A DNA stretch of 64,000 nt from Pollutimonas subterranea. Its GTDB lineage: Bacteria; Pseudomonadota; Gammaproteobacteria; Burkholderiales; Burkholderiaceae_B. Numbering within the stretch: position 1 is the stretch's first letter; each line of letters opens with the position of its first letter. This document shows, piece by piece, positions 24,242 through 28,504 of this stretch. The stretch covers positions 1-64,000 of the forward strand of contig NZ_PDNW01000005.1 in the NCBI RefSeq assembly GCF_002849655.1, in the 5' to 3' direction. Below the pieces are notes generated by a model. It ran no database searches and had not been told where the DNA came from. It saw only the letters and a list, made by a program, of their open reading frames with translations. The position numbers and the translations under genes are program-made.

Positions 24242-25144
24242 TCACGACGGCGCGATGCTCGTTAAGTGCTTGACCAACAAATCAGCGGCCGGCGACAAAA
24301 GCGCCTCGCCGCGATAGCAAATGGCGAACCGTCGCTGGGCCCAAGGGTCGTTCAATGGAATCACCCTCAAGCTTTGCACATTGGCATAGACTTGCGCCAC
24401 TTCCACTGGAACCACGCTGATCGCAAGATTGGCCAGCACCACACGCAAGACCGCATTCAGATTCGACACGAATACACGTTCGACAAGTTGCCGCCCCATC
24501 AGCAAGGCCTGGCGCTTGAGCATTATTTGCACGGCACTTGCCGACGACAAGCTGACATGCTCGTAGTCCAGCGATGCTTCGAAGTCCATGGATTGCAGCG
24601 ACGCCAAAGGATGATCCGGATGCACGACGACAGCAAGACGGTCCGTCCGGTACGCCTGTGTTTGCAGCCCCTGGAAATCAGCGACATCCCAGCAAATGCC
24701 TACAGATGCCACGCCTTCCTTGATGCCCCTGATGACATCGGCGCTCAGCCGCTCCTCGATGTCTATCTGTATCGTCCGGTAGTCGGGATTCTGGAGAAAC
24801 ACGGCAAGGTCTTCCGGCAGAGACTCCGCCAGCACCGACGCGGTAGCCAGGATCCGCACTTGGCCCTTGACTCCGGCCGCATAAGACTGCATGTCCCGCC
24901 TTATCCGTTCGGCGCTCGCCAGCATCGCCCTTGCATGCTCAAGCAGGGTCTCGCCGGCGGCAGTTGGAACGACCCCATGGCGCCGACGTGTCAGCAAGCG
25001 CACACCCAGCACTTCTTCCAGAGCGGCGATGCGCTTGCTGACCGCCGAACCGACGATATTTGATTGATCAGCCGCCCGTGCAATGCTGCGCATCTCGCAT
25101 ACGGTGACAAATAGGCGAAGCGTCGTGAGATCAAGATCCCGCAT
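24242..25144 (-). CDS. LysR-family transcriptional regulator
   Basis: A 300-residue LysR protein. The N-terminal winged helix-turn-helix is at about 4-63 (LTTLRLFVTVCEMRSIARAADQ, then SAVSKRIAALEEVLGVRLLTR), followed by the co-inducer domain (about 92-295). It is divergent from the lyase/CoA-transferase fusion gene with 135 bases between starts, so it most likely regulates that gene and the following Bug and reductase genes. The inducer is probably a related organic acid; this is inference. Confidence 0.94.
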   Translation of the reverse strand: MRDLDLTTLRLFVTVCEMRSIARAADQSNIVGSAVSKRIAALEEVLGVRLLTRRRHGVVPTAAGETLLEHARAMLASAERIRRDMQSYAAGVKGQVRILATASVLAESLPEDLAVFLQNPDYRTIQIDIEERLSADVIRGIKEGVASVGICWDVADFQGLQTQAYRTDRLAVVVHPDHPLASLQSMDFEASLDYEHVSLSSASAVQIMLKRQALLMGRQLVERVFVSNLNAVLRVVLANLAISVVPVEVAQVYANVQSLRVIPLNDPWAQRRFAICYRGEALLSPAADLLVKHLTSIAPS

Positions 25145-25279: not shown

Positions 25280-27442
25280 ATGGCTGCAATCCCTGACGCG
25301 CGACATTTCTCTCCCCTTTCATGGCCCCGCGAAGCCATCATCCGCGAAGTAGGCTTGCGGGACGGCTTGCAGAGCATTGCGCGCACGCTACCGACCGAAC
25401 ACAAGCTGGAATGGATACGCGGTGCGCACGCTGCGGGGCAACGCGAGCTTGAAGTCGGCTCCTTCGTTCCCGCCCGCTTGCTTCCCCAGCTGGCCGACAC
25501 GCGGCAATTGGTAGAATTCGCCAAGACACTGCCTGAGCTCTTTGTATCTGTACTCGTACCGAATATGCGGGGGGCTGAAGATGCAATGGCCGCGAATGCG
25601 GATCTAATGCTTATCCCCCTGTCGGCCAGCCATGCGCACAGCATGGCCAACCTGCGCAAGACACCTGATGAAGTCGTGGCCGAGGTCGCCAGAATACGCG
25701 CGGCCCGCGATGCATCGGGCTCACGCACCATTATTGAAGCAGGCGTTGGAACGGCATTTGGATGCACCTTGCAGGGCGCCGTTGAACCATCAGAGGTATT
25801 GCGCCTGATGCAGGCGCTACTGGATGCCGGCGCCGACCGGGTCAGCCTGGCCGACACCGTGGGCTATGCCAATCCCGCCATGGTCGACGCCCTCTTCTGT
25901 GAAGCCCTGAGAGTTGCAGGCGGACGGCTCCACGGCGCCCATTTTCACGATACGCGGGGCCTGGGCCTGGCCAATGTGGTCGCCGCGCTCCGGGTGGGCA
26001 TTACATCGTTCGACGCCTGCCTGGCAGGCATTGGGGGCTGTCCCCATGCGCCCGGCGCCAGCGGAAATATTGCCACCGAAGACCTGGCCTTCATGCTGGA
26101 GGGCATGGGCGTCGCTACGCATCTGGATATGCCGCGACTGCTTGCACTGCGCGAATACGTCGCCCAATGCCTGGAGGGTGAAACACTGCATGGCGCCCTA
26201 TGGCAGGCGGGACTGCCCAGCACCTTTACACCCGCGCCGGTTCGTCCGGCAGCGCAACGGCGACTGCCGCTGGAAGGCCTGCGGGTCGTCGAGTTCACGC
26301 ATATGGTCATGGGTCCCACCTGCGGACTTGTGCTGGCTGACCTGGGTGCGGAAGTCATCAAGATCGAGCCGGTCGACGGCGACCGAACACGCCACTTGCT
26401 TGGCGCAGGCGCCGGCTTCTTTCCAATGTTCAATCGGAACAAGAAAAGCATCGCCGTCAACCTGCACACGCCGGAAGGGGTGGAGGTGGCGCGCAAGCTA
26501 GCCTGCAGTGCAGACATCGTTGCCGAAAATTTCCGGCCCGGCATGATGAAGAAATACGGATTGGACTATGCGACGCTGAGCGCCGGCAATCCGGGACTTA
26601 TCTACGCAAGCTTAAAAGGCTTCTTGCCGGGTCCGTACGAATCACGCACAGCACTGGACGAAGTGGTACAGATGATGGGAGGCCTCGCCTACATGACCGG
26701 GCGCCCCGGAGACCCACTGCGCGCGGGCACCAGCGTCAATGACATCATGGGCGGCATGTTCGGCGCCATCGGGATTCTGGCAGCGCTGATCGAGCGCGGC
26801 GCGACCGGAAAGGGACAGGAAGTTCAGTCGGCCTTGTTCGAGAACAATATCTTTCTTGTCGGCCAGCATATGTTGCAGTATGCCATTACGGGCGTCGCCG
26901 CCGCACCGATGCCCGAGCGAATTTCCGCCTGGGCGCTCTACGACGTCTTCACCGTCAAAGACCAGGAACAGATTTTCCTTGCCGCCGTCAGCGATGCCCA
27001 ATGGAAGGTCTTCTGCAACGCGCTGGGCTTCACCGATCTGCTTTCACGGCCGGAACTGGCGACCAACAATGATCGCGTTCGTTTACGCCCTGCGCTGTTG
27101 GCCGATCTACGGGAGCGACTGGCTACGTATACCGCAGCTGAATTGTCCGAACTTTTTGAAAAACATGGATTGCCTTTCGCCCCTATTGTCAGACCGGAAG
27201 ACCTGTTCGATGATCCACACCTTCAGGCAACAGGCGGGCTGGCCGAAATACGGCTGACTGACGGCGAGCGCGCCGGACAGATAACGCGCGCCGCCTTGCT
27301 GCCATTGACCATGACCGGCGAACGCCTGGGCGTACGCAGCAACCCTCCGACCCTCGGCGAACACACCGGCGAGGTACTCGCCGCCCTGGGCTATGGCGAG
27401 GACCAAATACAGAACCTGCTTGGCAAAAAGGCGGTTGGATAG
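25280..27442 (+). CDS. HMG-CoA lyase / CaiB-type CoA-transferase fusion
   Basis: One uninterrupted 720-residue frame with two enzymes. Residues about 15-300 are an HMG-CoA-lyase-like TIM barrel: EVGLRDGLQ with metal ligand Asp28, HFHDTRG with His221/His223, and the active loop GIGGCPHAPGASGN with Cys254 and Asn263. Residues about 329-720 are a class III CoA-transferase, starting LEGLRVVEFTHMVMGPTCG, with the probable catalytic Asp460 in ALDEVVQMMGG. A Pro/Ala/Arg linker (about 313-328) joins them. The pairing suggests activation of a free 3-hydroxy-3-methyl acid to its CoA ester and cleavage. Divergent LysR and downstream Bug genes support a catabolic role. Confidence 0.92.
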   Translation: MAAIPDARHFSPLSWPREAIIREVGLRDGLQSIARTLPTEHKLEWIRGAHAAGQRELEVGSFVPARLLPQLADTRQLVEFAKTLPELFVSVLVPNMRGAEDAMAANADLMLIPLSASHAHSMANLRKTPDEVVAEVARIRAARDASGSRTIIEAGVGTAFGCTLQGAVEPSEVLRLMQALLDAGADRVSLADTVGYANPAMVDALFCEALRVAGGRLHGAHFHDTRGLGLANVVAALRVGITSFDACLAGIGGCPHAPGASGNIATEDLAFMLEGMGVATHLDMPRLLALREYVAQCLEGETLHGALWQAGLPSTFTPAPVRPAAQRRLPLEGLRVVEFTHMVMGPTCGLVLADLGAEVIKIEPVDGDRTRHLLGAGAGFFPMFNRNKKSIAVNLHTPEGVEVARKLACSADIVAENFRPGMMKKYGLDYATLSAGNPGLIYASLKGFLPGPYESRTALDEVVQMMGGLAYMTGRPGDPLRAGTSVNDIMGGMFGAIGILAALIERGATGKGQEVQSALFENNIFLVGQHMLQYAITGVAAAPMPERISAWALYDVFTVKDQEQIFLAAVSDAQWKVFCNALGFTDLLSRPELATNNDRVRLRPALLADLRERLATYTAAELSELFEKHGLPFAPIVRPEDLFDDPHLQATGGLAEIRLTDGERAGQITRAALLPLTMTGERLGVRSNPPTLGEHTGEVLAALGYGEDQIQNLLGKKAVG

Positions 27443-27487: not shown

Positions 27488-28504
27488 ATGACTAATTCAA
27501 ATACCAATTTCAAACGACGCCAGCTGCTGCGTGCCCTAGGAGCCACCGCACTGGGGACCACCGCACTGGCCATGCCTTTTTCCATCCTCGCCCAAAGCGG
27601 CGGCTCCCGAAGCGACAGGCCGATCAGCTTCATCCTTCCCGTGGGTGCGGGATCGGGCGTTGACACGATAGTACGAGCGGCGGGCCCGGCCTTGTCCAAG
27701 GCTCTTAAGCACACCGTCGTCATTGAAAACCGGCCTGGTGCCGGAGGCATTGTCGGGACCTCGGCCGTCGTCAAGGCGGACCCCGATGGCTTTACGCTAA
27801 GCGTCGTCTCGAACAATCATGTCATCTATCCCAGCGTGTACAAGACAGTGCCCTTCGACCCTATTGCGGACATCACTCCCATAACGCTCATCGGTTCCAC
27901 CCCTTTCGTCCTGGTGGTGAACCCGAAAAAGCTTCCCGTGGGCAACGTACAGGAGATGGTGGCATTACTGAAGAAGCATCCCGGCGACTACAATTTCGCG
28001 TCATCGGGCAACGGCACGGTCTTGCATCTTGCGGCCGAAATGTTCGTGGACCAAGCCGAAGCGGACGCGCGCCACATACCCTATAAAGGTGTCGGCCCAA
28101 TGATTACCGATCTTATAAGCGGACAGGTGGATTTCGGCGTGCTGTCTCTTCCATCGGTAAGGCCGCATCTGACCAGCGGCAGCTTGCGCGCGATTGGCGT
28201 GGGCGGCAAGACTCGGCTTCCTTCCTTGCCGGACGTGCCGACCATTGCCGAACAAGGCCTGGCCGATTACGACATGACGGGTTGGTTCGCGGCGGTTGGC
28301 CCCGCGGGACTATCCGATGCACAGGTCAAGGAAATCTACGACGGTTTCGTGCAGGCGTTCAAAGACCCCGGCTTACAGGAAAGCATGGAATCGCAGGGCA
28401 ATACCATAACGCTTGTGCCTCCGGACGAAACGGCTGCCTATTTCCGTTCGGAACTGAAAAAATACGCCGCTGTCGTGAAGCAGGCCGGCATCGCGCTGAA
28501 GTAA
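27488..28504 (+). CDS. Bug-family (TctC-type) solute-binding protein
   Basis: A 338-residue periplasmic binding protein. The N-terminus has a twin-arginine-like stretch FKRRQLLRALG and ends MPFSILAQ near residue 37. The mature part shows Bug hallmarks: RPISFILPVGAGSGVDTIVRA and later VVIENRPGAGGIVG. Bug proteins bind carboxylates and similar acids and serve TTT permeases. AAGGAG is well placed. It is 45 bases after the fusion gene, so the bound acid is likely the fusion enzyme's substrate; transport may rely on a TctBA encoded elsewhere, for example at 6660-8642. Confidence 0.93.
   Translation: MTNSNTNFKRRQLLRALGATALGTTALAMPFSILAQSGGSRSDRPISFILPVGAGSGVDTIVRAAGPALSKALKHTVVIENRPGAGGIVGTSAVVKADPDGFTLSVVSNNHVIYPSVYKTVPFDPIADITPITLIGSTPFVLVVNPKKLPVGNVQEMVALLKKHPGDYNFASSGNGTVLHLAAEMFVDQAEADARHIPYKGVGPMITDLISGQVDFGVLSLPSVRPHLTSGSLRAIGVGGKTRLPSLPDVPTIAEQGLADYDMTGWFAAVGPAGLSDAQVKEIYDGFVQAFKDPGLQESMESQGNTITLVPPDETAAYFRSELKKYAAVVKQAGIALK

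Follow-up and report, generated by a model that had tools for sequence, protein, structure and literature searches.

Recurrent fusion of an HMGL-like lyase to a class III CoA-transferase in Pollutimonas subterranea and related bacteria

Results

In P. subterranea, an HMGL-like lyase and a class III (CaiB/BaiF) CoA-transferase are encoded by one gene (25280..27442, + strand) that reads from ATG to stop over 720 aa. The gene lies in what is here called the window, the whole stretch of 64,000 nucleotides that was analysed (NZ_PDNW01000005.1, positions 1 to 64,000). As an earlier note on this DNA had claimed, an activating CoA-transferase is truly fused to a carbon-carbon lyase, with one open frame and both domains whole. 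The same two-domain order was found in related bacteria. The best explanation of the protein, predicted from its sequence and given about even chances, is CoA transfer to a citramalate-type C5 hydroxy-dicarboxylate followed by cleavage to acetyl-CoA and a 2-oxo acid.

Two complete domains in one reading frame

The lyase domain (residues 20-294; 25337..26161, +) matched the Pfam family HMGL-like (PF00682) with 136.7 bits against a cut-off of 29, covering positions 3-260 of the 260-position profile, and the transferase domain (residues 331-696; 26270..27367, +) matched CoA_transf_3 (PF02515) with 374.5 bits, far over its cut-off, along profile positions 1-366 of 366. Between them lie the end of the lyase and the interdomain linker (approximately residues 295-330; 26162..26269, +), a segment that spans a 107-nt deletion relative to another genome of the genus, G003. 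Arg27, Asp28, Glu58, His221, His223, Cys254, and Asn263, which correspond to Arg41, Asp42, Glu72, His233, His235, Cys266, and Asn275 of the human enzyme, were invariant in all 39 rows of a lyase alignment comprising the window and 38 of 57 prepared split lyases. In the transferase half, Asp460 aligned with the catalytic Asp of class III CoA-transferases. Hence the complete HMGL barrel (Asp28, His221/223, and Cys254) and the complete CaiB-type transferase with Asp460 that the earlier note had read in a single 720-residue frame were both borne out by full-length profiles and by residues in their expected places.

The whole chain was modelled by AlphaFold2 from 82 aligned rows with a mean pLDDT of 89.1 and a pTM of 0.69, pLDDT falling below 50 at residues 1-13 and in the linker at residues 322-325. 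The lyase half by itself reached a pLDDT of 91.3 and a pTM of 0.90. Around Asp460, blocks 451-490 averaged a pLDDT of just 57-69, and the transferase active site is therefore without a confident model. Promoter and terminator scans returned signals no better than those of shuffled sequence.

Origin of the single frame by a deletion between two adjacent genes

The fusion arose through deletion of the stop, spacer, and start that separated two adjacent genes. Four further genomes of the genus were searched, and the orthologues were located in G003 (HMGL 76-78% and CaiB 85-86% identical), in which the pair are separate genes in different frames with 14 nt between them, within a block that is syntenic with the window on either side. 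Between two anchors at the junction the window is net 107 nt shorter and, since 107 leaves a remainder of 2 on division by three, the two frames of G003 are brought together in the window. The stop, the spacer, and the ATG of the G003 arrangement are all absent, and the window linker contains zero Met between the AGLP motif and the start of the transferase; the transferase is therefore without a start at the old ATG.

As a case against its own reading, the earlier note had raised separate genes in all close relatives together with a frameshift in the window. The first part holds for the nearest relative, G003, whereas the frameshift was rejected, because the 107-nt deletion restores the frame exactly, the synteny of the flanks is unbroken, and other fused copies exist. 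The same exact restoration and unbroken flanks argue against a sequencing or assembly artefact, which the availability of one genome alone for the species would otherwise allow, and loci L003, L007, L011, and L047, whose titles are not marked MAG, are likewise fused; we consider an artefact extremely improbable.

Recurrence of the fusion among relatives

To place the fusion among relatives, the best 80 of 590 confirmed relatives were sampled. Both halves were present in 67 of these 80 loci, 7 of them fused, 59 adjacent but split, and one (L060) split with genes between, while no lyase match was found in the other 13 within the DNA searched. The fused loci belong to Polaromonas sp. C04, a Curvibacter MAG, Achromobacter Bel and MYb9, a Polaromonas MAG, a betaproteobacterial MAG, and Methylobacterium nonmethylotrophicum, so that the search for the same domain order put forward in the earlier note yielded seven further fusions in this sample, two Achromobacter included. 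Three of the 59 split loci (L034, L038, and L073) carried a partial lyase and in a fourth (L013) the transferase frame was broken; these four were below the length limits and left out of the tree.

A maximum-likelihood tree, built quickly from 66 rows, took in 63 of these loci, the window, the pair of G003, and one more pair from the same genome as the window. On this tree the 8 fused rows required 7 changes, at least 5 of which were forced by well-supported branches, where a change may be a gain or a loss of the fusion alike. The fused label was unclustered, with 135 of 500 shuffles giving equally low counts. The readable linkers varied in both length and sequence (in L003, L007, and L023 at least one of the two bounding motifs was not found) and, because they differ, separate fusions are favoured. 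To judge from these sequences, lyase and transferase seem to have been joined repeatedly among relatives. The two Achromobacter loci, Bel and MYb9, are sister rows whose linkers are alike, and the linker of L005 retains a Met.

Individual linkers have features of their own. In the Polaromonas sp. C04 fusion (L003:6010-8226) the linker is Pro/Gly-rich and resembles a translated intergenic repeat element, and in the linker of a further fusion (L042:5977-8178) the peptide SEASTP is repeated in a short tandem array.

These observations bear on whether fusion has consequences for the enzyme. It may be neutral, the two domains remaining independent and being tethered by chance deletion, with neither channelling nor any new property, an account that would fit any substrate and that could equally well be right or wrong. 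The scatter of fused copies over the tree, the varied linkers, that of L003 with its presumed repeat origin among them, and the split state of 60 of the 67 two-half loci in the best 80 of 590 are all consistent with neutrality. Recurrence with both domains whole indicates that fusion is at least tolerated, which is itself compatible with a neutral origin.

Among the 59 adjacent split pairs in the best 80 of 590, 40 had both genes in the same frame with stop codons between them. Stop-codon read-through was considered and dropped, as the ranking by which the best 80 of 590 were chosen favours same-frame pairs, joined by tblastn. The two halves also differed in how close their matches were: in L012-L022 the lyase was close (73-79%) and the transferase more distant (59-62%), and in L023-L046 the lyase was distant (49-55%) and the transferase stood at 57-70%. 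Given this difference between the two groups, the two halves may differ in history through partner exchange. No described HMGL-CaiB fusion was found in the literature searched, which covered few subscription journals and was available in part.

Gene neighbourhood in the window and in related loci

A divergent LysR-type regulator lies approximately 135 bp upstream of the fused gene (24242..25144, −; Pfam), and a Bug/TctC periplasmic solute-binding protein is encoded downstream (27488..28504, +; Pfam), as it also is in G003. LysR genes occur near the pair in many relatives. Both neighbours named in the earlier note were thus confirmed, and the free-acid scavenging role that it drew from them is the natural reading. 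Across the 80 loci and the window, Bug-type proteins formed the most frequent of the counted clusters (50 of 81), followed by LysR (33), HPPD (17), and IclR (10), with aconitase-family (7), fumarylacetoacetase (4), class I fumarase (3), and TRAP DctP (3) clusters being rarer; such counts are rough, recording conserved-frame clusters anywhere in the locus DNA with some members per cluster scanned by Pfam/NCBIfam. Curated cut-offs were exceeded by two scanned HPPD members and by one scanned fumarylacetoacetase. The class I fumarase genes were close to the pair in 3 loci.

One locus, L060 (L060:274-8371), has, by cluster assignment, the order LysR(−) HMGL-HPPD-fumarylacetoacetase-CaiB-Bug, placing tyrosine-catabolism genes between both halves.

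In the available part of a study of Mimosa root exudate, HMGL and CaiB genes in orthologous operons were up 8- to 9-fold in Paraburkholderia phymatum and about 2-fold in Cupriavidus taiwanensis (PMC5789663). A match on P. phymatum NC_010625 was 64% identical to the window over 96% as a single piece, either fused or same-frame, and our guess is that it represents the exudate-induced operon.

Affinities of the lyase half

The genome encodes six HMGL-family matches, one of which (L117) is its canonical lyase, with scores of 357 bits for P. aeruginosa 2ftp, 345 for human HMG-CoA lyase, and 204 for 6nds. Sequence comparison thus indicates that the fused lyase is not of the leucine-pathway type, for which the genome has a separate lyase. 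The structure 6nds is titled as an HMG-CoA lyase of Acinetobacter baumannii and was crystallised together with CoA and the C5 hydroxy-dicarboxylate 3-methylmalate; the presence of 3-methylmalate may be adventitious. A profile of the fused-type lyases scored 310 bits to 6nds, 291 to Bacillus 1ydo, and 274 to both the human and P. aeruginosa 2ftp enzymes. When the lyase half of the window was scored by itself, Bacillus HMG-CoA lyase came first, with 195.0 vs 193.6 bits for 6nds. 6nds was also the top structural match of the lyase model in Foldseek (E 2.7e-29, vs 1.2e-28 for 1ydo and 2.0e-28 for human 2cw6), with all three E-values within tenfold of one another.

The fused lyase shares with HMG-CoA lyases (human HMGCL, Bacillus 1ydo, and Pseudomonas PA2011/2ftp) the TIM barrel, the metal ligands, and the catalytic Arg and Cys, and differs from them in having Gly at the Tyr167 position, in a family profile that is narrowly nearest to 6nds, and in the attached transferase. 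Catalytic residue roles in HMG-CoA lyase have been described, with Tyr167 among the critical residues in the part of the source available (PMC6941031). By eye, the column of human Tyr167 holds Gly155 in the fused protein and one of Gly, Ala, and Ser in each of the 39 rows; as the canonical lyase of the same genome, L117, has Ser there, this position makes a weak test.

Three more HMGL/CaiB neighbour pairs (L114, L115, and L116, on contigs C44 and C4 of the genome) have Bug and LysR or IclR genes close by, mostly assigned by eye, with IclR and TctA genes scanned at L114, and L115 also includes aspartate-dehydrogenase-like and alanine-racemase/D-serine-dehydratase-like genes. These pairs probably represent a repeated module whose substrates differ. 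The genome also has 7 matches to HpcH/HpaI, the family of CitE-type lyases.

Affinities of the transferase half

Human SUGCT, titled succinate--hydroxymethylglutarate CoA-transferase in the PDB, was the best fold match of the whole model, at approximately 30% identity by structure alignment. The fused protein has in common with SUGCT and with other class III CoA-transferases (FRC and YfdE) the fold and the catalytic-type Asp. Unlike them, it carries an N-terminal lyase domain and lies below the NCBIfam equivalog cut-offs, missing that for SUGCT (NF052585; 249.3 vs 750) and the equivalog or subfamily thresholds for succinyl-CoA:mesaconate and formyl/oxalate CoA-transferases (193.6 vs 700; 220.7 vs 504.2; 234.7 vs 442). 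Among the best 25 of 29 NCBIfam families, none had its transferase cut-off reached.

Predicted reaction and candidate substrates

What we infer, for the reaction, its substrate and CoA donor, for the roles of the Bug, LysR, and hydratase proteins, and for any channelling, is as follows. The C-terminal class III CoA-transferase would take CoA from succinyl-CoA or acetyl-CoA and place it on a free 2-hydroxy-2-methyl dicarboxylate, probably of the C5 citramalate type, and the N-terminal metal-dependent HMGL barrel would then split the CoA ester by a retro-Claisen reaction into acetyl-CoA and a 2-oxo acid (pyruvate, if the acid is citramalate). The Bug protein presumably aids uptake of the acid, and a hydratase encoded elsewhere in the genome probably turns an unsaturated acid, e.g., citraconate, into the hydroxy acid. 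This pairing of transfer with cleavage to acetyl-CoA is what family chemistry leads us to expect. The choice of a C5 acid follows from the 6nds ligand, the aconitase-family hydratase, and the class I fumarases, and against it stands the narrow lead of 6nds over Bacillus HMG-CoA lyase in these sequence comparisons. Class I fumarases convert mesaconate to (S)-citramalate, according to the accessible text of PMC5592240.

Precedents exist for the two steps. In Chloroflexus, (R)-citramalyl-CoA lyase belongs to the HMGL family, and the transferase and lyase genes are adjacent. Like the proposed fused enzyme, the Chloroflexus pair activates a free hydroxy-dicarboxylate and splits it to acetyl-CoA and a 2-oxo acid; in contrast, here a single polypeptide is encoded, between LysR and Bug genes, by a member of the Burkholderiales, and the two are likened by reaction, not by sequence. 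The clostridial citramalate lyase complex also joins transferase and lyase activities in cleaving the free acid, with subunits unrelated to the fused protein and with an acyl carrier protein. Ccl, the lyase of the itaconate pathway, is a member of the CitE family, not of HMGL. Succinyl-CoA:(R)-citramalate CoA-transferase (EC 2.8.3.20) and (R)-citramalyl-CoA lyase (EC 4.1.3.46) form an established reaction pair in the available part of PMC8307300. As far as the available text goes, the Ict-Ich-Ccl itaconate pathway is alike in using a transferase, a hydratase, and a lyase on C5 acids to give acetyl-CoA and pyruvate (PMC12290011, PMC9875883), and the characterised C. necator transferase was inactive on (R)-citramalate (PMC12290011).

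The earlier note had named free 3-hydroxy-3-methylglutarate (HMG), citramalate, or a close relative as the substrate, and the evidence favours the citramalate type, HMG being less supported given the nearness to 6nds, the missing Tyr167, and hydratases that fit C5 acids. Free HMG has points in its favour. The lyase half is just over the NCBIfam HMG-CoA lyase cut-off (NF004283; 258.2 vs a subfamily cut-off of 246), the lead of 6nds over Bacillus HMG-CoA lyase is slight, the transferase fold is matched best by SUGCT, and the betaproteobacterium Snodgrassella alvi consumes free HMG, its first two steps being unannotated in the part of the report available (PMC11343714). Steps of that kind would fit the lyase/transferase pair. 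However, the family profile is nearer to 6nds than to the human or Pseudomonas HMG-CoA lyases, the Tyr167 position holds a small residue in every aligned row, the SUGCT equivalog cut-off is missed by a wide distance (249 vs 750), and the nearby hydratases have no obvious fit to HMG. Furthermore, a lyase-half match (E ≤ 1e-30) occurred in 5 of 83 genomes of a family taken for Neisseriaceae, picked out by the density of a DNA-uptake motif, and in 0 of 14 genomes of a genus coded g166, which we presume might be Snodgrassella. On balance, free HMG appears unlikely as the substrate. The Snodgrassella alvi link itself was set aside on the lack of matches in those 14 genomes at that limit, the identity of the genus being inferred.

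HPPD and fumarylacetoacetase near the pair elsewhere are not obviously explained by a citramalate route. They would suit some other dicarboxylate, 2-hydroxy or 2-alkyl, from the breakdown of aromatics, e.g., D-malate or an alkylmalate derived from maleate or alkylmaleate following ring cleavage of the homogentisate or gentisate type. The HPPD cluster in 17 loci and fumarylacetoacetase in 4, L060 with its interposed genes included, favour such an acid, and one of the maleate type could suit the aconitase-family hydratase. Nevertheless, HPPD loci with a named family or genus are all Comamonadaceae, so this synteny may reflect shared ancestry, and no member of either cluster is near the window locus; we regard an aromatic-route acid as quite improbable, and the citramalate type remains preferred.

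An aconitase-family gene as candidate hydratase

An aconitase-family gene lies in the same genome, on a different contig from the fused gene (C33:177016-178959, equivalent to L156:8954-10966). It has a small-then-large order, with a LeuD-like small part first and a LeuC-like part second. Relatives of isopropylmalate isomerase interconvert citraconate and D-citramalate. Three aconitase-family members were scanned, and none reached a curated cut-off among the best 25 families listed.

This hydratase is associated with the lyase/transferase pair both statistically and by position. An aconitase-family gene that shares 58-84% identity with the L079 copy was at most approximately 1.5 kb from the pair or from CaiB alone in 7 of 80 loci, which belong to four genera (Sphaerotilus, Methylobacterium, Ramlibacter, and Limnohabitans, the last with four loci). 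Among 399 Burkholderiales genomes, the hydratase was present in 7 (E ≤ 1e-150), that of P. subterranea included. A CaiB match (E ≤ 1e-130) occurred in 5 of these 7 vs 62 of the 392 others (one-sided Fisher p 0.0019), and a lyase match at the same limit in 3 of 7 vs 5 of 392 (p 0.00018), or 3 of 7 vs 7 of 392 (p 0.00038) when two spanning-hit genomes were added, all of these statistics ignoring shared ancestry. The order lyase-transferase-hydratase is found in tandem in G179, and the hydratase is divergent from the pair in G238. Two hydratase carriers, G014 and G259, lacked matches to HMGL and CaiB alike at E ≤ 1e-75. Conversely, a close CaiB occurred in 67 genomes, 62 of which had no hydratase at the limit used, so the hydratase is no obligatory partner.

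Of five genomes from the genus, only the window genome (G000) and G003 combine the closest pair with the hydratase. The hydratase is 65 and 67% identical in these two, the next best being 38%, and in both its locus contains LysR, divergent Bug, and TRAP genes (partly scanned in G000, by synteny in G003). In G001, no hydratase was found and the transferase (62%) and lyase (51%) are on separate contigs; the best matches of G002 and G004 were weaker still.

Taken further, the fused enzyme and the aconitase-family hydratase might constitute an undescribed bacterial route for an unsaturated branched dicarboxylate (citraconate or an alkylmaleate), in which hydration to an (R)-2-methylmalate-type acid would be followed by transfer and cleavage in one chain, and repeated fusion would reflect selection for handover of the CoA ester. 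We advance this speculatively and consider it less likely than not.

Discussion

The case described here is a real and recurrent fusion of a gene pair of known kind, and the surprise is moderate. Its noteworthy parts are the repeated fusion and the candidate hydratase. P. putida with the P. aeruginosa PA0878-PA0883 itaconate cluster made no use of (R)-citramalate or citraconate, according to the part of the report available (PMC9875883), and a working enzyme for these acids would therefore be useful. The fused gene offers a one-gene tool for assaying a reaction pair found in many Burkholderiales, and the aconitase-family gene is a named candidate hydratase for testing alongside it. Because the same pair has been fused repeatedly, it lends itself to testing whether flux changes when a CoA-transferase is tethered to its lyase.
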